Of a stretch of DNA of 34,108 nucleotides, positions 1,249 to 34,067 are shown in pieces. The first letter of the stretch is position 1. Every line of letters starts with the position of its first letter. The notes under the pieces were generated by a model. It searched no databases. It was not told the origin of the DNA and saw only the letters and a list, made by a program, of their open reading frames with translations. The DNA lies in contig JAUQWM010000007.1 of assembly GCA_030835125.1 (NCBI GenBank), forward strand, positions 1 through 34,108, read 5' to 3'. Source of the stretch: Gemmatimonadaceae bacterium. Lineage in GTDB: Bacteria > Gemmatimonadota > Gemmatimonadetes > Gemmatimonadales > Gemmatimonadaceae. The translations under genes and the position numbers were made by a program.

Positions 1249-1251
1249 GTC

Positions 1252-1389
<138 letters not shown>

Positions 1390-12470: not shown

Positions 12471-14621
12471 ATGCGCAGGATGATCGCACTCATCGCACTG
12501 GCCGCGCCACTGTACGGCCTCACGGCCCAGTCCCAGCGTCCGTTCACGCCGGCCGACTGGTATCGGGTGACGACGCTGAGCGCGCCGGCGGTGTCGCCGG
12601 ACGGGCGGCTGGTCGCCTTCACGGTGACCACGGTGAAGGAGACCGACAACCGCCGCCACCAGGAAGTCTGGGTTGTCCCCAGCGCCGGCGGCACGTCGTT
12701 GCGGTACACCGCGCCTGGATATGAGAGCTCCAATCCGCGCTGGTCTCCAGATGGACGCTGGTTGCTTTTCAACTCCACGCGCCCCGGTTCGCGCGGTCGC
12801 ACCTGGGGCCTCCGCATGGACCAGCCCGGCGGTGAGGCGGTGGAGATCGACAGCTTCCCCGCCGGCTCCATGCCTGGCGACCACCGGTTCGTGGTGACGT
12901 CAGAGCCCCTGCCCGTGGACAGCACCGGCCGCGGCCGGGACTCGCTCGTGAGCATGCCCCCGATGGCGCGGCCACCCTACGGTTCGATCACCCAGCCGCT
13001 GGATCCCAGGCGATTCGACGGGCGCCACATCACCGACCTGCGGTACAAGGCGAACGGCCAGGGATTCCTTCCGGGCCCGCGCGAGGCGCGCGTCATTCGC
13101 GCGTCGCAGCTCTGGATGCAGCCGGTCGGCGGAGGGGCGAAGAAGGTGATCGACACGACGAGATACTCGCGCCGCAGCCCGGCCGTATCGCCCGACGGGC
13201 AGTGGATCGCCTACGTCGCCGATCCCGAGATGCGGCCCGACTCCGTCGTCGAGGCCATCGCGGACTCGATGGCGCTGCTGCCCTATGACGCCAGGCGCGA
13301 CGAGGCGCCACGCAACGACGCCGACATCTTCATCGTCAGCGTGAACGGCGGGGCGCCGCGCCGCCTGACGAGTGCGATGGGGTCGGAAGGCGACGTCACC
13401 TGGTCGCCCGACGGCAAGTCGATCTCGTTCACGTCAGCCGCCACCCGGACCGGGTCGGCCCGTCTGCACGTCGTCCCGGCGGCCGGCGGCACGCCCGGCA
13501 ACCTGCTGGGCAACTGGCAATACGAGCCGCAGGATCACTGGTGGACGCCGGCCGGCCAGATCATGGTGGCTGCCGCGGTGGGCGGGCGCACCGCGCTCTT
13601 CCGGCTCGATCCCGGCACGAAGCTGATGACGGAAGTCATCGGCGGTCGGCGCCGCCTGGCGGGGTTCTCGACGGATGCAAAGCAGGCGAAGGTCGCTTAC
13701 GTATCGACGAGCATCACCAAACCCACGGAGTTGTACATCGCCAACAGCGACGGCACCGGCGAGGTCAAGCTGACGACCTTCAACGACAAGCTGAACGCCG
13801 AGGTGGAGTGGGCGGACGCGGAGCGGTTCACCTACAAGTCGGTCGGCGGGCTGGAGATCGAGGCGTGGCTGCAGAAGCCTGCCGGCTACACGCCAGGCCG
13901 GAAATACCCGTTGGTCCTGTACATCCACGGCGGACCGCACAGCGCGTACGGGGAGAACTGGTTCGACGAGTTTCACAACCTGTCCGGCGCGGGGATGTGG
14001 GTCCTCTTCACCAACCCGCGCGGGTCGAGCGGATATGGCGGCGACTTCACGTACTCGACGCGCGGCCGCTGGGGACTCGAGGATTTCCAGGACCTGATGA
14101 AGGCGGTGGACATCGTCTCCACGCGTGCCGACGTGGACTCGACGCGCATGGGCGTCACCGGAGGGTCGTACGGCGGCTTCATGACGGCGTGGATCACGAC
14201 GAAGACCAACCGGTTCAAGGCGGCGCAGACGGACCGCATGATCTCGAACTGGTGGTCGTGGTACGGGACGACCGACGTGCCGGGCCTGACGGAGTTCGAG
14301 TTCTTCGGGAAGCCGTGGGAGAACGAGAAGGTCTACGACGAACTCTCACCCATTCGCTTCGTCGACAAGGTGCGCACCCCGACCCTGATCGTGCAGTCGG
14401 AGGAAGACCACCGCACCCCGATGGCGGACGCGGAGCAGTGGTTCATGGCGCTGAAGAAGCAGGGCGTCCCGGTGGAGCTGGTGCGGTATCCGCGCTCGAC
14501 GCACGACCTTTCCCGCACGGGTGAGCCATGGCTCCTCGTGGATCGACTGGGCCGGCTTCGGCAGTGGTTCGGCCACTGGCTCAAGCCGACGGGAGCGGCG
14601 ACCACGTCGTTCGATCGGTGA
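12471..14621 (+). CDS. S9 family prolyl oligopeptidase-like serine peptidase, exported
   Basis: This 716-residue protein has a signal peptide (MRRMIALIALAAPLYGLTAQ), then a beta-propeller of WD/TolB-like blades with repeated SPDG motifs (about residues 40-420), then an alpha/beta-hydrolase domain. Catalytic residues are S566 in GGSYGGF, D646 in SEEDHRTP and H678 in RSTHDLS. It is the S9C type (acylaminoacyl-peptidase / dipeptidyl aminopeptidase) and should cleave short peptides in the periplasm, the propeller limiting substrate size. The ATG at 12471 is preceded by GGAGCGAAGG. A GTG at 12423 would place 16 polar residues before the signal peptide and is less likely. A heptad repeat starts five bases after the stop codon. 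Confidence 0.94.
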   Translation: MRRMIALIALAAPLYGLTAQSQRPFTPADWYRVTTLSAPAVSPDGRLVAFTVTTVKETDNRRHQEVWVVPSAGGTSLRYTAPGYESSNPRWSPDGRWLLFNSTRPGSRGRTWGLRMDQPGGEAVEIDSFPAGSMPGDHRFVVTSEPLPVDSTGRGRDSLVSMPPMARPPYGSITQPLDPRRFDGRHITDLRYKANGQGFLPGPREARVIRASQLWMQPVGGGAKKVIDTTRYSRRSPAVSPDGQWIAYVADPEMRPDSVVEAIADSMALLPYDARRDEAPRNDADIFIVSVNGGAPRRLTSAMGSEGDVTWSPDGKSISFTSAATRTGSARLHVVPAAGGTPGNLLGNWQYEPQDHWWTPAGQIMVAAAVGGRTALFRLDPGTKLMTEVIGGRRRLAGFSTDAKQAKVAYVSTSITKPTELYIANSDGTGEVKLTTFNDKLNAEVEWADAERFTYKSVGGLEIEAWLQKPAGYTPGRKYPLVLYIHGGPHSAYGENWFDEFHNLSGAGMWVLFTNPRGSSGYGGDFTYSTRGRWGLEDFQDLMKAVDIVSTRADVDSTRMGVTGGSYGGFMTAWITTKTNRFKAAQTDRMISNWWSWYGTTDVPGLTEFEFFGKPWENEKVYDELSPIRFVDKVRTPTLIVQSEEDHRTPMADAEQWFMALKKQGVPVELVRYPRSTHDLSRTGEPWLLVDRLGRLRQWFGHWLKPTGAATTSFDR

Positions 14622-14625
14622 AGTC

Positions 14626-14653
14626 GGGAATCGGGAATCGGGAGTCGGGAATC
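14626..14653. repeat. Heptanucleotide tandem repeat GGGAATC, four units
   Basis: GGGAATC, GGGAATC, GGGAGTC, GGGAATC, beginning five bases after the S9 peptidase stop. Relative to the flanking plus-strand genes it reads GGGAATC. The icd, pntAB, lemA and peptidase-MA tracts read GATTCCC in the mRNA sense, so this is the exception. Confidence 0.9.
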
Positions 14654-14705
14654 GGTGGTGCCCTCGACGAAGGCTCGCGGCCTGTGGTTGAAGGCTCGGG
14701 TTCCT

Positions 14706-18962: not shown

Positions 18963-19385
18963 GTGGAACGAAAGGCCTCGGCGATCTGGAACGGCACGCT
19001 CAAGGAAGGGAATGGCACCATGAGCGTGCCCAGCGGCGTGCTCAGGGATGCCGCCTACACGTGGGCGACACGGTTTGCCGAAGACCAGGGGACCAATCCC
19101 GAGGAACTCGTGGGGGCAGCCCACGCGGGCTGTTTTTCGATGGCCCTGTCCGGAAAGCTCACCAGCGCCGGCCTCCCGCCCGAGCGCATCGCCACGACGG
19201 CGGCCGTCACGCTCGAGAAGACTGATGCCGGCATGACGGTCACGCGGGTCCACCTGTCGACACGTGCCAGGGTGCCGGGCGCCACCCCCGAGGCCTTCGC
19301 GGAGCACGTCGAGGCCGCGCGGGCGACGTGCCCGATCTCGCGGCTCCTCAACGCGACCATTACGGTGGACGGAAGGCTGGAATAA
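18963..19385 (+). CDS. osmC: OsmC family peroxiredoxin
   Basis: This 140-residue cytosolic thiol peroxidase reduces organic hydroperoxides. The two catalytic cysteines are C57 in HAGCFSMAL and C123 in ATCPISRLL, the standard OsmC/Ohr pair, and length is normal. The GTG start at 18963 is fixed by a strong GGAGG at 18950-18954, eight bases upstream. A start at 18900 would add 21 unrelated residues. The sequence (GNGTMSVPSG..., NPEELVGAAHAGCFS) fits OsmC rather than Ohr. The heptad tract begins within five bases of its stop. Confidence 0.94.
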   Translation: MERKASAIWNGTLKEGNGTMSVPSGVLRDAAYTWATRFAEDQGTNPEELVGAAHAGCFSMALSGKLTSAGLPPERIATTAAVTLEKTDAGMTVTRVHLSTRARVPGATPEAFAEHVEAARATCPISRLLNATITVDGRLE

Positions 19386-19389
19386 CCAC

Positions 19390-19430
19390 GAGGTCCGAGG
19401 GCCGAGGTCCGAGGTCCGAGTCCGAGGTCA
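19390..19430. repeat. Heptanucleotide repeat GAGGTCC, about six units
   Basis: GAGGTCC, GAGGGCC, GAGGTCC, GAGGTCC, a 6-bp unit GAGTCC, then GAGGTCA. It starts four bases after the OsmC stop codon. Confidence 0.88.
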
Positions 19431-19446
19431 GGGCCCACGGGTCGCC

Positions 19447-19474
19447 GAGTCACGAATCACAAATCACGAGTCAC
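19447..19474. repeat. Heptanucleotide repeat GAGTCAC/GAATCAC, four units
   Basis: GAGTCAC, GAATCAC, AAATCAC, GAGTCAC, followed directly by GAATTGG, whose TTG is the likely start codon of the arginase-fold gene. It has the same unit and sense orientation as the tract upstream of htpX. Confidence 0.9.
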
Positions 19475-19477
19475 GAA

Positions 19478-20455
19478 TTGGTCCGCACCTTCTTCCTGCT
19501 GATCGTCGCGGCGACCGCCGTCCCGGCCCAGGTCCGCTACACCGGACCGGATGGGCGGGTCAGGGTGGCGCTCGCCCAGCAGCCGTTCTCGCCTAACGGG
19601 ACGTCCCGCGGGCCGGCCACGATGGCCGCCGGGGGCATTCGCGATACGCTGGCGCGGCTCAATGCCGTCGTGCGCTCGGCCGAGGCCGCGCTGACGCCTG
19701 ACGAGGGCACCGAGTACGGCGGGTGGAAGCGCCTGGGCATGGCCCTTGGCCACTTCGGCGACATCGTCCGCCAGAACGAGCAGGACGGGTACTTCACCGT
19801 GGGCCTGCTCGCGACCTGCCCGTCGATGCCGGGCCTGGTCGCCGGACTGCAGGCGTCCGGTCCCGGGCGGGATCCCCTGCGCATCGGCATGCTCTGGCTG
19901 GATGCCCACCCGGACATCAACACGCCCGAGACGACGCGCAGCGGTTCGCTGGGGGGGATGCCGGTCGCGGTGGCGACCGGGCGCGCGCTGCAGCGCATGC
20001 GGCTCGACGCCGGCCTCGATCCGGCGCTGTCTGACCAGCATGTCGTGATGGGCGGCGTGCGGCTCACGGACCCGCTGGAGCAGGAGATCCTCGACCGTTC
20101 GCGCATCGAGCAGGTCTCGGTCGACGACCTGCGTCGCGCTTCGCCGGCGGTCTTCGCCCAGCTCGACCGGCTGGATCGCATCAGCGACAAGCTCTACATC
20201 CACATCGACCTCGACGTGCTCGATCCCGCCGAAGTCCCCGGCCACGGCAACAAGGTCCCCGGCGGACCGTCGAGCCGGGAACTGGCGGCGCTCTTCGAGC
20301 AGATCTTCGCCCGGTATCCCAGGGCGTCGGCGATCGGCTTCGCGACCATCCCGACCGACGACCCCGGCGGTGTCTCGATTTCGGCCGTCAACCGCATGAT
20401 CACGGGAGCGGTGAAGGGCGTGATGGCGCGCGAGGGACGCGGACCGCGCCCCTAG
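19478..20455 (+). CDS. Exported arginase-fold protein with altered active site
   Basis: A 325-residue ureohydrolase-fold protein. The metal motifs WLDAHPDIN (Asp-x-His-x-Asp) and HIDLDVLDP (Asp-x-Asp) are intact. By alignment from memory with Bacillus arginase, the first Mn ligand (His of GGDHS) is Cys in LLATCPS, the proton-shuttle His of SGNIHGMP is Gly in SGSLGGMP, and the guanidinium-binding Glu near the C-terminus is not evident. It also has a signal-like N-terminus (VRTFFLLIVAATAVPAQ), unusual for this family. The activity is therefore uncertain: ureohydrolase on another substrate, or a non-catalytic relative. The only sensible start before the signal peptide is TTG at 19478, immediately after heptad repeats, with no Shine-Dalgarno site. 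The stop shares the tetranucleotide CTAG with the convergent transporter. Confidence 0.83.
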   Translation: MVRTFFLLIVAATAVPAQVRYTGPDGRVRVALAQQPFSPNGTSRGPATMAAGGIRDTLARLNAVVRSAEAALTPDEGTEYGGWKRLGMALGHFGDIVRQNEQDGYFTVGLLATCPSMPGLVAGLQASGPGRDPLRIGMLWLDAHPDINTPETTRSGSLGGMPVAVATGRALQRMRLDAGLDPALSDQHVVMGGVRLTDPLEQEILDRSRIEQVSVDDLRRASPAVFAQLDRLDRISDKLYIHIDLDVLDPAEVPGHGNKVPGGPSSRELAALFEQIFARYPRASAIGFATIPTDDPGGVSISAVNRMITGAVKGVMAREGRGPRP

Positions 20456-23353: not shown

Positions 23354-23640
23354 CGCTTCTCCTCCTTCTTGAACATGAGGAGCATGCGGTCCGTGACGGC
23401 GTAGCCGCCGACCACGTTCAACATCGCGAAGACCACCGCCAGGAAGCCGAGCACCGTCGAGATCCATCCGAGGCCGGCTCCGGCGACGATCAGGGCGCCG
23501 ACCACCGTGATGCCGGAGATGGCGTTCGACCCCGACATGAGCGGCGTGTGCAGGGTGGGGGGAACGCGCCCGATCAGCGCGGCCCCCAGGAAGGTCGCCA
23601 GGACGAAGATGACGAGACCGCCAATCAGGGACTCAGACAT
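23350..23640 (-). CDS. pntAB: NAD(P) transhydrogenase subunit alpha part 2 (membrane segment)
   Basis: This 96-residue protein contains three transmembrane helices (GLVIFVLATFLGAALI, NAISGITVVGALIVAG, LGFLAVVFAMLNVVGGYAV) and the RVPPTLHTPLMSGSNAISGI loop conserved in PntA domain II. In the three-subunit form of the enzyme this region is a separate polypeptide. The ATG at 23638-23640 is followed by a normal N-terminus (MSESLIGGLVIF). It is preceded, five bases away, by four GATTCCC heptads instead of a Shine-Dalgarno site. It overlaps pntB as ATGA. Confidence 0.95.
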   Translation of the reverse strand: MSESLIGGLVIFVLATFLGAALIGRVPPTLHTPLMSGSNAISGITVVGALIVAGAGLGWISTVLGFLAVVFAMLNVVGGYAVTDRMLLMFKKEEKR

Positions 23641-23645
23641 GGGTC

Positions 23646-23673
23646 GGGAATCGGGAATCGGGAATCGGGAATC
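23646..23673. repeat. Heptanucleotide repeat GGGAATC, four perfect units
   Basis: Four identical GGGAATC units (GATTCCC in the mRNA sense) fill the short gap between pntAA (stop 23679) and pntAB (start 23640) within one operon. Confidence 0.95.
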
Positions 23674-23678
23674 GCGCG

Positions 23679-24776
23679 TCAGGCGCGGACAGAGCCGGCA
23701 TGGACGAGGCACATCGGACCGGTGATCTCATCCTCGAGATTCAGGGTGATGGTGCCATCCTTGATCAGGTGCTGGAGCAGCGTCAGGACGTTCTTGCTGA
23801 ACATGAGGCTCGCGTGGTGCGGCACGGAACTCGGCAGGTTCGTCGCGCCCATGACCACCACGCCGTTGTGCACCGTGGTCTGCCCCGCGACGGTGAGCTC
23901 ACAGTTGCCGCCCGATTCCGCCGCCAGGTCCACGATCACCGCCCCGGGCCGCATGGTGGCCACCATGGCGGCCGTGATCAGCCGGGGCGCGGCGCGGCCG
24001 GGAATCTGCGCCGTGGTCACGACGAGGTCCTGGTCCTTGAGGTGCGTCGCCATCGCGTCCATGGTCTTGCGCTGCTCCTCCTCGGTCTGCGCGCGCGCGT
24101 ACCCGCCGGCCGCCTCGGCATCCGCCGATGGTTCCGGCCCCACGAAGGTGGCGCCCAGCGAGAGCACCTGCTCCCGGGCGGCGGCGCGAATATCGAAGCC
24201 GGAGACGACGGCACCCAGGCGGCGCGCCGTCGCGATGGCCATGAGGCCCGCGACGCCGGCACCGAGCACGAACGCCTTGGCGGGCGGAATGTTGCCGGCC
24301 GCCGTCGTCAACATCGGCAGGATCTTCCCCATCTCGGCGGCGCCAAGGAGCACGGCCTTGTAGCCCGCGATCGTCGCCTGCGAGGAGAGGATGTCCATCG
24401 ACTGGGCGCGGGTGATGCGGGGCACCTTCTCGAGCGACAGGGCCGACACGCCACCGGAGGCCAACTGGGCAAGGAGGTCGGCGCTGGTCGATGCCTGCAG
24501 GAGTGAGATGAGCAGGGCGCCATTGGCCAGGTGCCGCGCCTCGTCTGCCGACGGCTTCTGGACCTTGACGACGACGCCGGCGCCAAGTGCCGCGGTCGCA
24601 TCGCCGAGGGTCGCTCCCGCCTTCTCGTAGAGGGCATCGGGGAAGTTCGCCGGCACACCGGCACCGCGTTCCACCATGACCTCGACGCCCGTCTTCACCA
24701 GGCGGGAAACGCTCTCGGGACTCATGGCCACACGTCGTTCGCCGGTGGCCGTCTCCCGCGGGACTCCGATACGCAT
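23679..24776 (-). CDS. pntAA: NAD(P) transhydrogenase subunit alpha part 1 (NAD-binding)
   Basis: This 365-residue cytosolic domain I binds NAD(H). It has the alanine-dehydrogenase/PntA fold: MRIGVPRETATGERRVAMSP at the N-terminus, the Rossmann motif GAGVAG at residues 172-177, the RAAAREQVLSLGA segment, the mobile-loop region around TTAQIPGRAAPRLIT, and VIVDLAAESGGNCE. It ends where the hydrophobic domain II begins in the next gene, the typical split form. GGAGAAG lies just upstream of the ATG, and a plausible sigma70 promoter precedes it. It is the first gene of pntAA-pntAB-pntB-transporter. Confidence 0.97.
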   Translation of the reverse strand: MRIGVPRETATGERRVAMSPESVSRLVKTGVEVMVERGAGVPANFPDALYEKAGATLGDATAALGAGVVVKVQKPSADEARHLANGALLISLLQASTSADLLAQLASGGVSALSLEKVPRITRAQSMDILSSQATIAGYKAVLLGAAEMGKILPMLTTAAGNIPPAKAFVLGAGVAGLMAIATARRLGAVVSGFDIRAAAREQVLSLGATFVGPEPSADAEAAGGYARAQTEEEQRKTMDAMATHLKDQDLVVTTAQIPGRAAPRLITAAMVATMRPGAVIVDLAAESGGNCELTVAGQTTVHNGVVVMGATNLPSSVPHHASLMFSKNVLTLLQHLIKDGTITLNLEDEITGPMCLVHAGSVRA

Positions 24777-26824: not shown

Positions 26825-26960
26825 CGCGTCGCCCTCCCATGGCCCGCCGGGAGTACTATGCCGCTCCGCCCGTGCGTTCTCAACCAGTCGGCTCCGGCTG
26901 GCGCCGGGGACCCGGGGAGTACACGTTCGTTCCTTCCTCGCCGCTGAAGCAGGCCGATCC

Positions 26961-26995
26961 TCCCTTCTCCCATCTCCGATCTCCAAGCTCCCGGC
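26961..26995. repeat. Degenerate heptad tract TCCnnnC, five units, before the kinase start
   Basis: TCCCTTC, TCCCATC, TCCGATC, TCCAAGC, TCCCGGC in strict 7-bp register, ending four bases before the kinase ATG (27000). The fixed positions are TCC and the final C. It is the most diverged tract in the window. Confidence 0.75.
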
Positions 26996-26999
26996 TCAG

Positions 27000-29456
27000 A
27001 TGCCTGACGAGTGGTGGTCACGGGTCAGCGAGTCCCTCGAGCACGCCCTCGCCGTGCCGACCGGGGAGCGCGCCCGCTGGATGGGAGCGCTGGCGCTGCG
27101 CGACCAGGCGCTGCACGACGAGGTCTCGAGCCTCCTCGCGGCGCACGAGCGCGAGGCGGGACGATTCGAGGAACCGGCCGTCGCGCGGTTCGGCGCGATC
27201 GCGGCGACTCCCGGCCTGGAGGCGGGACAGGTCATCGGGCCGTATCGCGTCATCCGCGAGGTGGGACGGGGCGGAATGGGCTCCGTCTTCGAGGCCGTGC
27301 GCGTCGACGGCGACTTCCAGAAGCGTGTCGCGATCAAGATCATCGCCGGCGGACGCTGGCACGCGGCCCTGCTGAAGCGGTTCCGCCAGGAGCGCCGCAT
27401 CCTCGCGCGCCTCGAGCACCGCAACATCGCGGCCCTGCTGGACGGCGGTGGGCTCCCCGATGGCGCCCCGTACTTCGCCATGGAGTTCGTCGAGGGAGAG
27501 CCCATCGACGCGTACAGCGCGTCGCGCGCGCTACCCGTGCGCGAGCGGCTTCAGCTCATGCGACAGGTGTGCGGCGCCGTCCACTTCGCGCACCAGAACC
27601 TCGTCGTGCACCGGGACCTCAAGCCGGGGAACATCCTGGTCACCGCGGACGGGACGGTGAAGCTGCTCGACTTCGGGATCGCCAAGCTCCTGGCCGGCGG
27701 TGACGACTCCAGCGATCCGGAGCAGGACCTGACGGGACTTGGCGCCGGCCCGTTCACGCTGGCGTACGCGAGCCCGGAGCAAGTGCTGGGAGACCCGGTG
27801 ACGACCGCCAGCGACGTGCACGCGCTGGGAGCGGTGTTGTACCGGGTGCTCACGGGACGGCACCCGTTCCGTGATGGTGACACGGCGCCGTCCGAGATGC
27901 GTCGCCGGATCCTGGAGGCAACGCCGGCACCGTCAGGCCTCGGCCCCGACCTCGACGCGATCCTGCGCACCGCCATGCACAAGGAGCCGGGGCGGCGCTA
28001 CGAGTCGGCACTGGCATTCGCGGAGGACCTCCGTCGATACCTCGACGGCCAGCCGGTGCGCGCGCGCCCGGATTCCGCCGGCTACCGCCTGCGGAAGTTC
28101 GCCCGACGCAACCGCGTGCCGGTGGGCGCGTCGGCACTCGCCCTGGCGGCGCTCCTCGCCGCGGTGGTCGTCTCGATGCGACAGGCGCGCATCGCCGCGG
28201 AGGAACGAGACCGGGCGCGCGTCGAAGCGGCGAAGGCCAATCGCGTGACCGCGTTCGTGCAGGAGATGCTGCGCGCCGCGGATCCCCGGGAGGCGCGGCC
28301 GGACCTGACCGTGTCCGAGGCGCTGGCCGCGGCCGCGCTCCGGGCCGACTCCACGCTGGCGGACGAACCGGAGGTGCTGTCGGCGGTGCAGACCGCGATC
28401 GGGCTCAGCTACCTCGGCCTTGGCCGGTACGATGCCGCCGAGCCCATGCTGCGTCGCGCGCTTGCGCTGCGGCAAGCGCTGGGGGGTGCGAATGCCGGGC
28501 TGGCCGCCAGCCTGCGCAACCTGGCGGTGCTGCATAACGATCGCGGAGAACTGGCGCCGGCCGAGTCGCTGTTCACGCAGTCGTTGGCGGCATACCGGCG
28601 GGCGTCGCCGCCGGACAGCGCCGGGCTGGCGCTGGCGCTCAACGACCAGGCGGACCTGCTGCAGTACACGGGAGACCTCCCGGGCGCCGAAGCGGCGCAC
28701 CGCGAAGCGCTGGCGATTCGCGAGCGACTCGACGGTCCGCGGAGCGAGTCGGTCGCGGCCAGCCTCAACAACCTGGCGGTCGTGCTGGGACAGCTGGGGC
28801 AGTGGACGGTGGCGGAGTCGCTGCACATGGCGTCGGCCGGGATCGTCCTCGAGCGGCGCGGTCCCGACCATCCGGACGTGGCGTCCGCGCTCACGTCGGC
28901 CGCGTTCGCCGTGCAGGCGCAGGGGCGCTTTGCCGAGGCGGAGTCGCTGTACCGGGCGGCGTTGAGGATCCGCGTGAAGGTGCTCGGTCCCGGGCATCCC
29001 GAGACCGCGCGCACGCACATGAACCTCGGCTGGATGCTGCACGATTCGAAGCGGTACCCGGAGGCGCTGGAGGAAGCCACGCTGGTCCTGTCGAACCGCA
29101 CGGCGTTCGGCGACGATCATCCCGCGATCGGCAGTACGCTCACGATGCAGGGGCAGAGCCTGCTCGCGCTCGGACGGATTGGCGAGGGCGAGGCGAGCCT
29201 GCGCGACGCGCTGCGGATCCGGGAGCGCGCGCTGCCGGCGGGGCACTGGCTGATCGCCGCGAGCCGGAGCGCGGTGGGCGAGGCGTTGTTGCTGCGGGGC
29301 CGGTATGCGGAGGCGGAGCGGTTGTTGCTGGACGCACTCGTCGTGCTCCGGAAGGAGCGCGGGGAGGACCAGGAGCTGACCGCGCTGGCGAAGGCCCGGC
29401 TGGTCAGGCTCTACGAGCGCTGGGGGAAACCCGGCGAGGCGGCGAAGTACCGCTAG
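27000..29456 (+). CDS. Transmembrane Ser/Thr protein kinase with C-terminal TPR array
   Basis: This 818-residue protein has an N-terminal segment of about 75 residues typical of this kinase group (WWSRVSESLEHALAVPTGERARW...), then a Hanks-type kinase domain: glycine loop GRGGMGSVF, ATP-anchoring K113 in VAIKII, catalytic H204-R205-D206 in VHRDLKPGN, D224 in DFG, and the YASPEQ/SDVHALGAVLYRVLTG lobe. One transmembrane helix lies at about 375-395. From about 460 to the end are TPRs of the kinesin-light-chain type (GRYDAAEPMLRRALALRQ and similar), predicted extracytoplasmic. It probably senses something outside and phosphorylates the divergent sigma factor or other targets. No Shine-Dalgarno site is seen; a heptad tract abuts the ATG. 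The stop shares CTAG with the convergent gene. Confidence 0.93.
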   Translation: MPDEWWSRVSESLEHALAVPTGERARWMGALALRDQALHDEVSSLLAAHEREAGRFEEPAVARFGAIAATPGLEAGQVIGPYRVIREVGRGGMGSVFEAVRVDGDFQKRVAIKIIAGGRWHAALLKRFRQERRILARLEHRNIAALLDGGGLPDGAPYFAMEFVEGEPIDAYSASRALPVRERLQLMRQVCGAVHFAHQNLVVHRDLKPGNILVTADGTVKLLDFGIAKLLAGGDDSSDPEQDLTGLGAGPFTLAYASPEQVLGDPVTTASDVHALGAVLYRVLTGRHPFRDGDTAPSEMRRRILEATPAPSGLGPDLDAILRTAMHKEPGRRYESALAFAEDLRRYLDGQPVRARPDSAGYRLRKFARRNRVPVGASALALAALLAAVVVSMRQARIAAEERDRARVEAAKANRVTAFVQEMLRAADPREARPDLTVSEALAAAALRADSTLADEPEVLSAVQTAIGLSYLGLGRYDAAEPMLRRALALRQALGGANAGLAASLRNLAVLHNDRGELAPAESLFTQSLAAYRRASPPDSAGLALALNDQADLLQYTGDLPGAEAAHREALAIRERLDGPRSESVAASLNNLAVVLGQLGQWTVAESLHMASAGIVLERRGPDHPDVASALTSAAFAVQAQGRFAEAESLYRAALRIRVKVLGPGHPETARTHMNLGWMLHDSKRYPEALEEATLVLSNRTAFGDDHPAIGSTLTMQGQSLLALGRIGEGEASLRDALRIRERALPAGHWLIAASRSAVGEALLLRGRYAEAERLLLDALVVLRKERGEDQELTALAKARLVRLYERWGKPGEAAKYR

Positions 29457-32401
29457 GGGGAGTACGCGAGGCTGGCCCACGCGCGGGCGCGCCGCCGGTA
29501 GGGCTCGTCGAAGGACCACGCCGCCCCCACCCGGGCCCGGACCGACGGCAGTCGCGCGAACCCTAACGACGAGACCGCGAACGTGCGCTCGATCCCGGCC
29601 AGCCGCTTCAACGCGCCGAGCGAGTCACCGGCGGCGACCCAGGTCGCGAAGGGCTCCCACGACATCCCGCCGAGGGACGCCCGGAAGACGTGCACGTTGG
29701 CGCCGCGCAGGAAGCCGGGTGGCACGGCGGGGAGGGTGATGCGCTGCGGGAGCCAGGACGGGTCGATCCACGGGTTGGCCGCGCCGCCGACCAGGAATTG
29801 CTCTGCCGCCCGACCGGCGTCGCCGGGTTCCGCGCGCGTGACGCCCCCAAGCAGCCAGTCGATGCGAACGAACCGGCGACCCGTTCCGGCCACCGCCGTC
29901 GCGGAGCCAGCCAGTCGCCGCCAGTCGTCATCGCCGGTGCGGCCCGCCGACGCCGCGAGTCCACCCACCAGGCTCAGGGTCATTGCGCCGGCCGATTGCG
30001 TCAGGCGACCCCGCGCCTCGCCGAACGCCAGCAGCCGGGTGGCCCCATCGAGGGCATGGTTGTCCATCCGCCCGGCCGACGCGCCGGCGCGGAGCGACCA
30101 GCCTGACGCGCCCTCCTCGCTGGCGAGCCGCGCCGCGAGCCCGCCACCGGTGTAACGCAGGTCCATGGATGGCGGTGCCAGGTGATCCCGCAACGCGGAC
30201 ACCTGCTGGTCGACATGCCACACGGTGCCGTCGATGGCAACGCGGGTGCGTCGCAGCGACGCCGCCAGGGATCCGCCGCGCCACGAACCGCGCGTGCCGG
30301 CACCACCCTGTGCCACGATGCTGAGGCGTGCGATGGGATCGATGTTGCCGATCATCAGCGTGCCCACATGGCCATCCGGACCCGCGCTGAGCCCGGGAAG
30401 CACGCGCCAGCGCCGCGGACCCAGTCCGTAGTCGGAAACCGGGAATCGGGAATCGGGAGTCGGGAATCGGGAAGCGTCCAGCTGCGCGATCGCCGGCGTC
30501 GGCGGTGCCACGGGCGACGACCCGCCCCCGATCGCCACCACGTTCAGGGCGCCATCCAGCGAAGCCAACCGGCGGACGTCGTAACCGCCGCTTCGCAACG
30601 CCAGGAACCACACGCTGGAATCGCGTCGACCGACGTCCGGGGCCAGGACCGCGCCGATGACCCGGGTCAGGACCCTCCCTGCGCCGCCCTCCACCGGGAG
30701 GTGCTCCAGGTTGGCGATCCCGCCGCGTTCACTGACGACGACCAGGTGCGCCCCGTCGGCCGTCCACGACGGTGCATAACGAGATGCCCCGGGGGCGTCC
30801 TCGAGCCGGCGCACCGACCCGGACCCGACGTCGACGATCGCGATTCCCCAGCGACCGTCCTCCTGGAAGCCTGCCGCGACATGCCGGCCATCGGGACTGA
30901 ACCGCGGCCGGTGCCAGACGAGCGCCGGCGAACCGGCGGCCAGCGTGCGCCACGAGCCGTCACGCAGGTCCACCACGACCAGGCTGCAGGATCCGGCGTG
31001 GCACCGGATGGCGGCGGCCTCGCGCCCATCGGGCGACGGGTCCCCCTGCCGCACGCTCGCGCCGCGCGTCACCCGCCTGACGACACCGGACGTCGTGTTC
31101 CACAGGAAGAGATCCGGCCGCGTGATGCCGTTCGGCGCGGGTTCGTCGCGGGTCACCAGGACGTGCACGCTGTCCACCCACCGGGGATGCTCGTGCGAGC
31201 GTCCATTGGCGGGATGCAGCGTGGCCAGTACGCGCCGTGGCCGGGGAAACGAGTCGCGCGGCGCCACGTCGAGCGAGTCGCGCGCCAGCAGGCGCGCGCG
31301 CGCCTGCCTGACGAGTGAGTCGGGGGCCGGGCGGGCGTCCCAGACCTGGAGTCGCGAGGGACCGCCCAGCGACCTGGCGACGATGGCCACGCGCTCGCCG
31401 TCCGGGGACACCGCCGGGTCGCCGGTCGCCCCGCTCATCCGCTGCACCAGTTCGCCCTCGACCAGCCCCGCGGCGCGCAGGCGCCCGCGCACCTGAAGGG
31501 CGCGGTCGATGACGTCCACCGTGAAGGCGCCATACATCTCCGCCGGCGACACGCCGAAGACCCCGGCGAACGCGGCGTCGAACGACCGCTCCTGCCGCGC
31601 GCTCATCCGCCGCCACAGGTGGACGAGGCTCGAGTCGCCCTGGCGCTGCTCCAGCCACTCGAGGAAGGCCGACCCCACGAGGTAGCGCATGTTGCCGCCC
31701 AGGAACGCGCCGCTGCCGTTGAGTTGTCCGTAGGTCGGGAACCGGCCCTCGAGCGCCCATTGCCGGAGCACGGCGGCGCGCCCCACCGAGAACGGCCGGC
31801 CGCTGCCGGTGAGCTGTCCCTCGATCAGGGTCGCGTACCCCTCGATGACCCACGGGGGCGCCTTGCGGGCCACCGGGCTGAGCTTCGTCGGCAGGAAGCG
31901 CCAGAGCAACCGCTCGCGCGGGTTGCGCGACGGGAATGTCAGGTGGGCGATGTGCGCGTACTCGTGCACCGCGAGCGCCTCTCCCCAGCCGCGGTGCGCA
32001 CCGAAGGTCGGCGAGGGCGACGGCGGTGTGGGCCAGAGGAAGATGACCGGACCCTCGAGGAAGGGCAGCGCGAACCCGTTCGCAACGTTCGATGGATCCT
32101 CGACGAGCACGGTGACCCGCGCCGCGGGCTGGTTCCCCACGACTGCATTCACCGCGCCGGCATACGCTTCCATCCGCGCCGCCACGCCCCGCGTCCATTC
32201 CTCCATCTCGGCGGGGAAGTGGATATCGAAATGCGCCGTCACAATGGTGCGCCAGGGAACCTGGGGTCGCGTGAGGTACTGTCCGTGCGCCGGCGCCGCT
32301 GCCAATCCGAGTGCCAGCGCGATCAACACGGCGGACCGCCGACAGCCGTCGGGCGCCTGGAGCGTTCGCGCCAGGAGTCCCACGTCACGGCCGGGTCTCA
32401 C
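29453..32401 (-). CDS. Exported peptidase-MA-like metallopeptidase with beta-propeller and possible outer-membrane barrel
   Basis: A protein of about 982 residues. A signal peptide (RRSAVLIALALGLAAAPAHGQ) precedes a peptidase-MA domain with HEYAH (H146, E147, H150) and a downstream third-ligand segment WVIEGYATLIEGQ. A TolB-like propeller follows (about residues 330-640; AVSPDGERVAIV, FSPDGRHVAAGF, WTADGAHLVVV). The last 300 residues have alternating strands typical of a beta-barrel and end in YSP rather than a classic terminal Phe. A GGGAATC heptad tract is translated within the propeller-barrel linker (ASRFPTPDSRFPVSD). The GTG at 32401 overlaps the htpX stop as GTGA; GTG at 32383 is an alternative. 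Function is unknown beyond probable surface proteolysis. Confidence 0.85.
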   Translation of the reverse strand: MRPGRDVGLLARTLQAPDGCRRSAVLIALALGLAAAPAHGQYLTRPQVPWRTIVTAHFDIHFPAEMEEWTRGVAARMEAYAGAVNAVVGNQPAARVTVLVEDPSNVANGFALPFLEGPVIFLWPTPPSPSPTFGAHRGWGEALAVHEYAHIAHLTFPSRNPRERLLWRFLPTKLSPVARKAPPWVIEGYATLIEGQLTGSGRPFSVGRAAVLRQWALEGRFPTYGQLNGSGAFLGGNMRYLVGSAFLEWLEQRQGDSSLVHLWRRMSARQERSFDAAFAGVFGVSPAEMYGAFTVDVIDRALQVRGRLRAAGLVEGELVQRMSGATGDPAVSPDGERVAIVARSLGGPSRLQVWDARPAPDSLVRQARARLLARDSLDVAPRDSFPRPRRVLATLHPANGRSHEHPRWVDSVHVLVTRDEPAPNGITRPDLFLWNTTSGVVRRVTRGASVRQGDPSPDGREAAAIRCHAGSCSLVVVDLRDGSWRTLAAGSPALVWHRPRFSPDGRHVAAGFQEDGRWGIAIVDVGSGSVRRLEDAPGASRYAPSWTADGAHLVVVSERGGIANLEHLPVEGGAGRVLTRVIGAVLAPDVGRRDSSVWFLALRSGGYDVRRLASLDGALNVVAIGGGSSPVAPPTPAIAQLDASRFPTPDSRFPVSDYGLGPRRWRVLPGLSAGPDGHVGTLMIGNIDPIARLSIVAQGGAGTRGSWRGGSLAASLRRTRVAIDGTVWHVDQQVSALRDHLAPPSMDLRYTGGGLAARLASEEGASGWSLRAGASAGRMDNHALDGATRLLAFGEARGRLTQSAGAMTLSLVGGLAASAGRTGDDDWRRLAGSATAVAGTGRRFVRIDWLLGGVTRAEPGDAGRAAEQFLVGGAANPWIDPSWLPQRITLPAVPPGFLRGANVHVFRASLGGMSWEPFATWVAAGDSLGALKRLAGIERTFAVSSLGFARLPSVRARVGAAWSFDEPYRRRARAWASLAYSP
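30441..30475. repeat. Heptanucleotide repeat GGGAATC inside a coding region
   Basis: Five units: GGGAATC, GGGAATC, GGGAGTC, GGGAATC, GGGAAGC. It is translated on the minus strand without a stop as part of the linker of the peptidase-MA protein. Thirty-five bases is not a multiple of three, so the tract cannot be a simple in-frame insertion of whole units alone. Confidence 0.93.
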
Positions 32402-33432
32402 TCCCGTCCCCCGTCTCCCGTCATCCGTCGGTCCTGGTACGCCATCGCCTTCAACCTGGCCACGCGAATCGCCATCGGTGGATGGGTCCCCAGCAGGCCG
32501 GCAAGGAACCCCTCGCGGTTGTTGAGGCGGCGGCCGAGGGGATCGGCGATGCAGAGGTGCGCGCTGCCGCGGTGAATGCTCTTCGTGGGAAGGGCGGCAT
32601 GCTCGATCTTCTGCAGGGCACTCGCGAGCGCGCCGGGGTTGCGCGTGAACTGCGCGCTCATGGTGTCCGCGAGGTACTCTCGCTTCCGGCTCACGCCGAG
32701 CGCGAGCAGCCGCGTGACGAGCGGGGCGAGGATCCAGCTCACGATCCACAGCACCAGGACGACGATCAGCACCGGATTGCCGCCCTTCTTGCCGCCACCA
32801 TGGCTGCGGCTCATCGACCGCGTCCGGATGCGGCCGCCACCGCGCATCATGCGACCCATCGCGTCGCCGACCAGCGCGACCGCCCCGACGAGCGCGGCCA
32901 GCATCGTCATCAGTCGCACGTCCAGGTTCCTGATGTGCCCCAGCTCGTGCGCGATCACCGCCTGCAACTCATCGCGGTCGAGCATCTCGAGCAGTCCCGC
33001 CGTCACCGCGACATGGGCCGTGGCCTCGTCCCGGCCCGTGGCGAACGCGTTGGGGTCCTCGTCAGGCACGATCCAGATCCGCGGGCGCCGGATCCCGCCG
33101 GCGATGGCCATCTCCTCGACGACGTTCACGAGCCGCACTTCGGCGTCGCCCTGCGGGTCAATGACCTCGCGGGCGTTCGTGGACCAGAGCACGCGCTCGG
33201 GGCCCCTGCGCCACGCCACCAGCGCGCCGATCGCGGCCGCAGTGGTGAGGCCAAGCCCGAGGAAGGGGACGGTGTGTCGATAGGCCCCCGGTTGCGCGTC
33301 GAGCGTGTACTGCCAGGCAATCCAGTCGCCGCCGAAGCCAAGCCAGGCGAAGAAGGCGATGAAGCCGGCGACCAGCAGGATCGAGCGCCGGCGGTTGGAG
33401 GCTTGCTGGGTGAAGAGGTCGGCGTTGGACAT
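32398..33432 (-). CDS. htpX: HtpX-like M48 membrane zinc peptidase
   Basis: This 344-residue inner-membrane protease degrades damaged membrane proteins. Two N-terminal helices (SILLVAGFIAFFAWLGF; VPFLGLGLTTAAAIGALVAW) precede the DEDPNAFATGRD motif and HELGH (H162, E163, H166). Two more helices follow, and then the third-ligand segment RKREYLADTMSAQFTRNP. A basic, Gly-rich insertion (GGGRIRTRSMSRSHGGGKKGG) between the inner helices is longer than in E. coli HtpX. LemA lies directly upstream, a common pairing. The ATG is preceded, two bases away, by heptad repeats and no Shine-Dalgarno site. The stop overlaps the next gene as GTGA. Confidence 0.95.
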   Translation of the reverse strand: MSNADLFTQQASNRRRSILLVAGFIAFFAWLGFGGDWIAWQYTLDAQPGAYRHTVPFLGLGLTTAAAIGALVAWRRGPERVLWSTNAREVIDPQGDAEVRLVNVVEEMAIAGGIRRPRIWIVPDEDPNAFATGRDEATAHVAVTAGLLEMLDRDELQAVIAHELGHIRNLDVRLMTMLAALVGAVALVGDAMGRMMRGGGRIRTRSMSRSHGGGKKGGNPVLIVVLVLWIVSWILAPLVTRLLALGVSRKREYLADTMSAQFTRNPGALASALQKIEHAALPTKSIHRGSAHLCIADPLGRRLNNREGFLAGLLGTHPPMAIRVARLKAMAYQDRRMTGDGGRE

Positions 33433-33434
33433 CA

Positions 33435-33510
33435 GTGATTCGTGACTGGTGATTCGTGACTCGGCACCTCCGCGTCATCGCCGAGTCACGAGTCACGAAT
33501 GACCAGTCAC
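33435..33510. repeat. Large inverted repeat built from GTGACTC-type heptads between lemA and htpX
   Basis: The left arm has GTGATTC, GTGACTG, GTGATTC, GTGACTC (33435-33462). The right arm has GAGTCAC, GAGTCAC, GAATGAC, CAGTCAC (33483-33510), roughly the reverse complement with one extra or shifted unit. The spacer is about 20 bases. The mRNA could form a long, slightly bulged hairpin exactly between the two genes. The lemA stop codon (33507-33509) lies inside the last unit of the right arm, and the left arm ends two bases from the htpX ATG. Confidence 0.88.
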
Positions 33511-34067
33511 GAGAGGTCGACCTTCGGCACCGCGCGCTCGGCTTCGTCCGTGATCTCCCAGAGCGGCGCGGGCGTCGCGCCCGCGATCCCGGCCACGAAC
33601 ACTGTCGGCACCTGGCGCTGCTTGGTGTTGTATTGCGTGGCCACGTCGTTGTAGAGCTGCCGGGCAAACGCGATCTTGTTCTCCGTCGACGTGAGTTCCT
33701 CCTGCAGCTGTCCGATGTTCGCGGTCGCCTTGAGGTCCGGGTCCGCCTCGACCACCGCGAGCAGGCGATGCAGCGCGCCCGTCAACTGGCCTTCCACCGC
33801 GGCGATCTTCGCCACGTCGCCTCCGGCGGACACCGAGATGGCCTGGTTCCGCGCCGCCACCACCGCCTCGAGCGTCCCCTTCTCGAAGGTCATCGCCCCC
33901 TTCACGGCCGCGATCAGGTTGGGAATCAGGTCGTGCCGGCGCTTCAACTGCACATCGATCTGCTTCCACGCGTTCGCGACCTGATTCTTGAGGGAGATCA
34001 GGGCGTTGTAGGCCCCAACGCCCCACATCACGATCAGGACCGTCAGGATCAGCAGGGTGATGAGCAT
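33507..34067 (-). CDS. lemA: LemA family membrane protein
   Basis: This 186-residue protein has one N-terminal transmembrane helix (MLITLLILTVLIVMWGVGAY) followed by the LemA helical domain: NALISLKNQVANAWKQIDVQLKRRHDLIPNL, then KGAMTFEKGTLEAVVAAR, and ENKIAFARQLYNDVATQYNT near the end. The biochemical role is unresolved. In many bacteria it is encoded with HtpX or TPM-domain proteins and tied to envelope stress. The ATG at 34067 has a GAGG about 7 bases upstream, a real ribosome site squeezed between the start and a GATTCCC tract. Its stop lies in a heptad unit shared with the inverted repeat before htpX. Confidence 0.95.
   Translation of the reverse strand: MLITLLILTVLIVMWGVGAYNALISLKNQVANAWKQIDVQLKRRHDLIPNLIAAVKGAMTFEKGTLEAVVAARNQAISVSAGGDVAKIAAVEGQLTGALHRLLAVVEADPDLKATANIGQLQEELTSTENKIAFARQLYNDVATQYNTKQRQVPTVFVAGIAGATPAPLWEITDEAERAVPKVDLS

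Follow-up and report, generated by a model that had tools for sequence, protein, structure and literature searches.

Rickettsia palindromic elements are longer palindromic repeats that have been inserted in frame into unrelated proteins at tolerated sites, and the elements of the REPIN/RAYT system are short dispersed repeats that persist as genome populations. Heptamer repeats of bacteria have so far been described mostly as intergenic features. The report on the G-rich GGGAATC and GGGNATC repeats of Xanthomonas and Nostoc places them on both strands, mostly between genes and near stop codons, with a preference for about four units and a minority of copies in genes, and gives 83% conservation of place between two Xanthomonas (Rehm et al. 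2015, PMC4692102). The TAACTGA heptamers of Beggiatoaceae, cyanobacteria, and Bacteroidetes are presented as a single unit located mostly upstream of start codons, with an orientation-dependent stop content that is argued to govern array sites; the in-frame copies listed are chiefly in hypothetical proteins or near the ends of proteins (MacGregor 2015, PMC4679880).

Our analysis concerns a GGGAATC heptad array read in frame within a gene of a Gemmatimonadaceae bacterium. The window is the whole contig C36 (34,108 bp) of a 4.48 Mb genome (G000) in 73 contigs, and the relatives used for comparison are Gemmatimonadaceae. Our own period-7 detector placed the array at 30440-30473, and TRF called six copies of period 7 at 30432-30473, which includes a degenerate edge from position 30432. 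The 14-mer GGGAATCGGGAATC had 16 matches with up to two mismatches in the whole window, compared with a mean of 0.29 in shuffles, and 0 of 100 shuffles reached 16. The array lies in frame within the open frame 29453-32749 of the minus strand, in which the host gene was called, like all genes of this analysis, by our own codon-score caller, not a standard annotator; the gene frame was the top-scoring frame on both flanks. The minus-strand translation is ASRFPTPDSRFP, with the longer sense reading DASRFPTPDSRFPVSDYG, and corresponds to residues 621-631 of the host protein. The cycle is imperfect (PTP instead of PIP) because one unit is GGGAGTC. Table 1 lists the features of the window.

Table 1. 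Host-gene regions and heptad arrays of the window.
Feature	Position	Strand	Basis
Host gene: signal peptide, HExxH metallopeptidase-like domain, TolB-like propeller, linker, C-terminal predicted beta-barrel	29453..32383	-	
Helical peptidase-like domain with HEYAH, residues 27-288	31469..32254	-	invariant H123 E124 H127, model
TolB-like beta-propeller, residues 294-595	30548..31453	-	TIGR02800 below cut-off, PD40, Foldseek TolB
Linker holding the array, residues 600-632	30437..30535	-	low pLDDT
C-terminal all-strand region, predicted barrel, residues 633-959	29456..30436	-	model secondary structure
GGGAATC array (GATTCCC in sense), predicted translation ASRFPTPDSRFP	30440..30473	-	TRF, detector, shuffles, frame score
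Three adjacent intergenic arrays, minus-strand order GAGTTGA, GAGTCAC, GATTCCC, filling the gap between two genes	1250..1389	-	TRF, gene calls
Intergenic GATTCCC array directly after gene 12480-14621	14624..14655	-	TRF, gene calls
Intergenic heptad arrays of CGAGGTC and of CGAATCA, between a gene end at 19385 and a gene start at 19478	19389..19478	.	TRF, gene calls
Intergenic GATTCCC array filling gap 23640-23679	23644..23674	-	TRF, gene calls
Intergenic heptad array (CTCCCAT)	26960..26992	.	TRF, gene calls
Inverted pair, GTGATTC/GTGACTC and CGAGTCA arrays, between genes 32398-33432 and 33507-34067	33435..33513	.	TRF, gene calls
GATTCCC-type array cut by contig end	34077..34108	-	TRF

The AlphaFold2 model of the host protein (28 sequences; residues counted on 29453-32332 of the window) had a mean pLDDT of 88.8. 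Values fell below 50 at residues 614-617 and 619-622, and the ten-residue blocks across 611-630 had values of 50 and 63, the latter at the site of the array (621-630). Together with the frame scores, this bears out the original prediction that the array lies inside a gene, in a linker between a propeller and a C-terminal barrel-like region. Foldseek returned TolB matches to the model (E 2.5e-11). The host had also been named a peptidase-MA protein. An HExxH motif is present, with H123, E124, and H127 invariant in alignments of 12 and 28 sequences; however, PD40 was the sole Pfam family above its cut-off, and no Pfam or NCBIfam peptidase-family model matched the catalytic region at E 0.1 or better, so the peptidase identity is one that we infer. 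From its model, the host looks like an outer-membrane protein, predicted to lie at the surface. A homologue in genome G026 (L033) contains one in-frame TGA within the match.

The linker was aligned between the host and 29 family loci, of which 26 were informative; the three left out were L043 and L051, apparently in the wrong frame, and the copy of the same-genus genome G001 (L054; named copy L118). The latter stops at a contig end before the linker, and the nearest linker comparison is therefore missing. The SRFP cycle was absent from all 26 informative relatives. Nor was SRFP or RFPIP found in the homologous frame of any of the 80 named loci, though some of these loci end before the linker. 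The linker comparison proposed in the original prediction thus showed no conservation in distant homologues, and an ancient linker feature is ruled out by the absence of the array from every informative relative. A first contig scan with the host protein as the single query found no relative. The aligned stretch is 44 residues long in the host and 39 in the three closest named relatives (L081-L083); therefore, the array did not simply add its length, and it appears to have taken over or filled up a flexible linker whose length varies. A conserved linker function of the peptide in the host would fit the location of the array exactly between two domains of the model. However, the cycle is missing from the relatives compared, and the same peptide is found in unrelated proteins, which leaves this explanation with a negligible chance.

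The census covered 1,634,108 bp of the genome, namely 80 stretches and the window, from contigs picked among those with GGGAATC matches. At a score of at least 12, there were 245 segments of period 7, compared with 1, 4, 3, and 3 of periods 8, 10, 11, and 13; the same cut-off gave 24, 11, and 20 segments of periods 6, 9, and 12, and 170 of period 14, a multiple of 7. Merging left 244 arrays: 168 intergenic, 44 over a gene 3' end, 4 over a 5' end, and 28 internal, that is, inside a gene by 30 bp or more. Most arrays were intergenic, although the called coding share of the sample was 86.6%. The stop codon was covered by 39 of the 44 arrays at 3' ends. Thirty-nine distinct unit families were present, about 15 of them common, and single units made up 35, 29, 24, 21, and 19 arrays at unrelated places. 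With all units pooled, four full units were found in 84 of the 244 arrays and three in 72. The 24 GGGAATC arrays comprised 16 intergenic, 4 at 3' ends, and 4 internal.

A GAKK core was considered as a rule for the units and rejected as unproven: it occurred in 216 of 244 arrays but in only 23 of 39 distinct units, it was marginal with distinct units counted once (fit 129.7, null maximum 125.4), and it was weaker elsewhere (9 of 20 in G001 and 1 of 6 in named genomes). In the window, a heptad array is also located at the other contig end (1-26). The assembly probably broke at heptads, since both contig ends are heptad arrays. A degenerate heptad, CTCCCGTCACCCGT, at 32401-32429 covers the 3' end of the gene 32398-33432, directly before the host gene.

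The heptapeptide cycles originally quoted for GGGAATC, GNRESGI and DSRFPIP, are correct, and so is the stop content given for GTGACTC, which reads VTRDS*L (asterisk, stop) on one strand and ESRVTSH on the other. GGGAATC can sit in a gene without introducing a stop, as predicted. In contrast, openness in six frames did not single out this unit. GGGAATC arrays were internal in 4 of 24 cases, compared with 24 of 220 for arrays of all remaining units (Fisher p 0.49). The count was 18 of 136 where neither strand of the unit has a stop and 10 of 108 where one strand does (p 0.42), the internal arrays being non-independent (28 in 15 genes, nine of them in one gene). With heptamers weighted by the base composition of the genome, 76% carry no stop on either strand. 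Other heptads proved equally common inside genes, the outcome that had been named as refuting: 8 of the 29 GAGTCAC/GTGACTC arrays were internal. GTGACTC, the very unit chosen as the contrast, is thereby the most frequent unit inside genes, read on its open strand (ESRVTSH). The proposal that only the GGGAATC family, or one orientation of the others, would be found in genes therefore held for orientation, as 10 of 10 internal arrays with stops on one strand were open in sense, but not for a special status of GGGAATC. The orientation result is close to a tautology, because an open reading frame forces an open sense strand.

The gene frame scored best on both 240-bp flanks in 26 of the 28 internal arrays (exceptions, C8:92721 and C63:173053). 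Hosts supported by Pfam included two DNA polymerase III alpha proteins, one DnaE2-like with nine arrays and one of the replicative type, as well as a radical SAM protein, a relative of penicillin acylase, an enzyme of the DAHP synthase family, MqnA, a NUDIX protein, an AMP-binding enzyme, a thioredoxin, a glycosyltransferase, and LexA (array near the C-terminus). The ImuB-like gene before DnaE2 also belongs to these hosts, although its IMS_C match barely reached the cut-off; we assigned the names DnaE2, ImuB, and replicative DnaE from homology and neighborhood. The densest in-gene site of the sample is formed by the consecutive radical SAM, ImuB-like, and DnaE2-like genes (L167:8349-16471; G000 C8:88349-96471), which hold 13 of the 28 internal arrays. 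At the end of the LexA gene (L218:5410-6069), a heptad array is read in frame, and an inverted partner lies after it. A link of the arrays to SOS mutagenesis (DnaE2, ImuB-like, LexA tail) was considered and dropped; the numbers are too small for more than coincidence.

Alignments to solved homologues of DnaE2, replicative DnaE, the KdsA-like enzyme, and the acylase placed the in-gene arrays in gaps. Compared with Taq PolIII alpha, the DnaE2 arrays lie outside the strongly aligned blocks (29-328, 367-505, and 615-943). The replicative-type enzyme (L191/L192; G000 C22:178480-182040) carries an in-frame GAGTCAC array in a catalytic-region turn, where a 22-residue stretch takes the place of the short Taq turn before VTQYDM. 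Of 49 full-length family matches, five were longer than our enzyme and 44 were shorter, the difference being exactly 12 residues in 21 of the shorter ones. The DnaE of G001 gave two adjoining matches, both covering query residues 541-553, and was 14 residues (42 nt, six units) longer overall. This one case, located from coordinates only, suggests more repeat copies in G001 and a frame-keeping step. The DAHP-family enzyme (L210:1533-2393) best matched KDO-8-phosphate synthases and holds a composite cluster of AGGTCCG-type and GAGTCAC units in one loop; its residues 148-173 (26 residues) stand where the solved homologue 3fs2 has six. The length of this KdsA-like enzyme varies in the family, and the G026 member has the same length as ours. 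The MqnA array fills a loop of variable length across the family.

These hosts bear on whether an in-gene array could be a phase-variation switch, in which gain or loss of a unit shifts the frame and turns a surface protein off. Slippage by one unit would shift the frame, because seven cannot be divided by three, and from its model the linker host resembles an outer-membrane protein. However, its array is short and interrupted by GGGAGTC, which should lower slippage, and similar arrays occur in the replicative DnaE and the KdsA-like enzyme, where switching off is expected to be lethal; in the one case noted, the longer DnaE of G001, the length step would keep the frame. We consider such a switch highly improbable.

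Comparison with G001 covered 43 loci (333 kb) with blocks of roughly 75-88% identical DNA, and 20 of the 244 arrays had an orthologous place, eight of these in the DnaE2 gene. The same unit was found at 2 of the 20 places, another unit at 8, and no array at 10. At four shared loops, the DnaE2 genes of the two genomes differ in their units. Among other DnaE2 loci of the family, 6 of 28 had an in-frame array (score of at least 14), with still other units. In 16 of 29 GAGTCAC arrays, the first unit comes directly after TGCC, compared with a background of 0.58% of positions; another array lies within 40 bp upstream in 16 of the 29. The TGCC-GAGTCAC edge was found again in the DnaE2 of G001, and the edge 18-mer TGCCGAGTCACGAGTCAC occurred 17 times in our genome, twice in G001, and in none of the other 97 family genomes searched. 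Three perfect tandem GGGAATC units were present in 3 of 298 sampled genomes of the phylum, ours included, and G001 also carries them. The distribution of the 18-mer and of the GGGAATC triples indicates that the set is lineage-specific. Among the GATGCCT arrays, 15 of 35 are preceded by CCCT.

We favor the reading that the linker array is probably a member of a large, recently active heptanucleotide population that was spread by copying between loci and then shaped by selection. New sites would be seeded from existing arrays instead of by independent slippage on the spot. Arrays landing in a gene would survive selection only with an open sense strand, a net length that preserves the frame, and a loop or linker that tolerates them. 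The peptide SRFPTPDSRFP would then be a passenger without a sequence-specific role. Copying is supported by the limited set of units at unrelated loci, mostly abutting genes and often at the stop codon, and by the in-frame minority, which sits where the relatives vary or fail to align. The shared array edges likewise suggest copying between loci rather than independent slippage. Against copying, no empty site with intact flanks and no target-site duplication came to light, and the linker and MqnA arrays sit where relatives have other residues of similar length, so that replacement or evolution in place would also fit. That 8 of 20 orthologous places hold a different unit is unexpected under simple inheritance. 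The marginal fit of the GAKK core and the origin of 13 of the 28 internal arrays in one three-gene region also count against it. No mobilizer was found in a search of G000 for Y1_Tnp, the transposase domain of RAYT type, while 5 of 14 control genomes matched.

Alternatively, each array could have been born in place by slippage on a chance 7-base duplication and kept in an unconstrained loop, with no movement between loci. Heptamers are discussed as a slippage-prone unit length in two reports (Rehm 2015, PMC4692102; MacGregor 2015, PMC4679880), the copy numbers are small, mostly three or four, and the same loop holds different units in two species. Slippage should nevertheless give locus-specific units, yet single units fill dozens of unrelated places and more than half of the GAGTCAC arrays share the TGCC edge. 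Birth in place is thus unlikely as a general origin.

A role of the arrays as DNA or RNA elements (G-quadruplexes or hairpins, e.g., terminators), with in-gene copies as strays, is compatible with copying. GGGAATC arrays are described as forming G-quadruplexes in vitro in work on Xanthomonas (Rehm 2015, PMC4692102). At the linker array, five GGG tracts lie on the plus (template) strand. The density of intergenic arrays was highest in convergent gaps (2.48 per kb), followed by tandem (0.98) and divergent (0.40) gaps, but mere harm near promoters gives the same gradient. Same-family neighbors within 80 bp were inverted in 17 of 21 cases; 45 further neighbor pairs were of different families. In contrast, several common units, GAGTCAC, GATGCCT, and GAGTTGA among them, lack GGG tracts on the strand listed, and half of the compared G001 places have no array. 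We regard this role as somewhat unlikely. A bolder extension of copying, that the composite heptad clusters are a self-spreading repeat class of the genus, with a defined TGCC edge before GAGTCAC, repeated invasion of the same protein loops by changing units, and resulting variation in loop length and sequence of core enzymes that include the replicative and error-prone DNA polymerases, is put forward tentatively as a possibility.

The in-frame families in the replicative DNA polymerase, DnaE2, the KdsA-like enzyme, and MqnA, whose units turn over between sister species at the same loop, provide comparable events in conserved proteins, and slippage and copying thereby become directly testable by comparison of strains. 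They also show one route by which enzyme loops gain new sequence. Our search of the open-access literature found no earlier description of translated multi-family heptad clusters in core enzymes and nothing relevant on heptads in Gemmatimonadota.

Unlike the Rickettsia palindromic elements, the in-gene clusters described here are direct tandem heptads of different units, often composite, and in contrast to REPIN/RAYT, the RAYT-type Y1_Tnp had no match in G000. By the definition of the Xanthomonas report, the linker array belongs to the same class (at least 14 bp with at least one GGGAATC unit), and our GGGAATC arrays resemble that class in being mostly intergenic (16 of 24), as do our arrays of all units pooled in favoring four units (Rehm et al. 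2015, PMC4692102). Dispersal over both strands, proximity to stop codons, and a smaller share within genes are common to both as well. By the same account, our genome differs in that GGGAATC is one of about 15 common families, clusters mix families, and in-gene copies lie inside conserved enzymes; compared with the 83% for Xanthomonas, the unit is kept at 2 of 20 G001 places, though our two genomes are more distant from each other. The TAACTGA repeats are likewise heptamer arrays (MacGregor 2015, PMC4679880), but our in-gene copies occupy central parts of core enzymes, and TAACTGA was not among the 30 most frequent of our 39 unit families. GGGAATC arrays and the orientation argument have already been published for other bacteria, whereas the multi-family form within core enzymes looks new.
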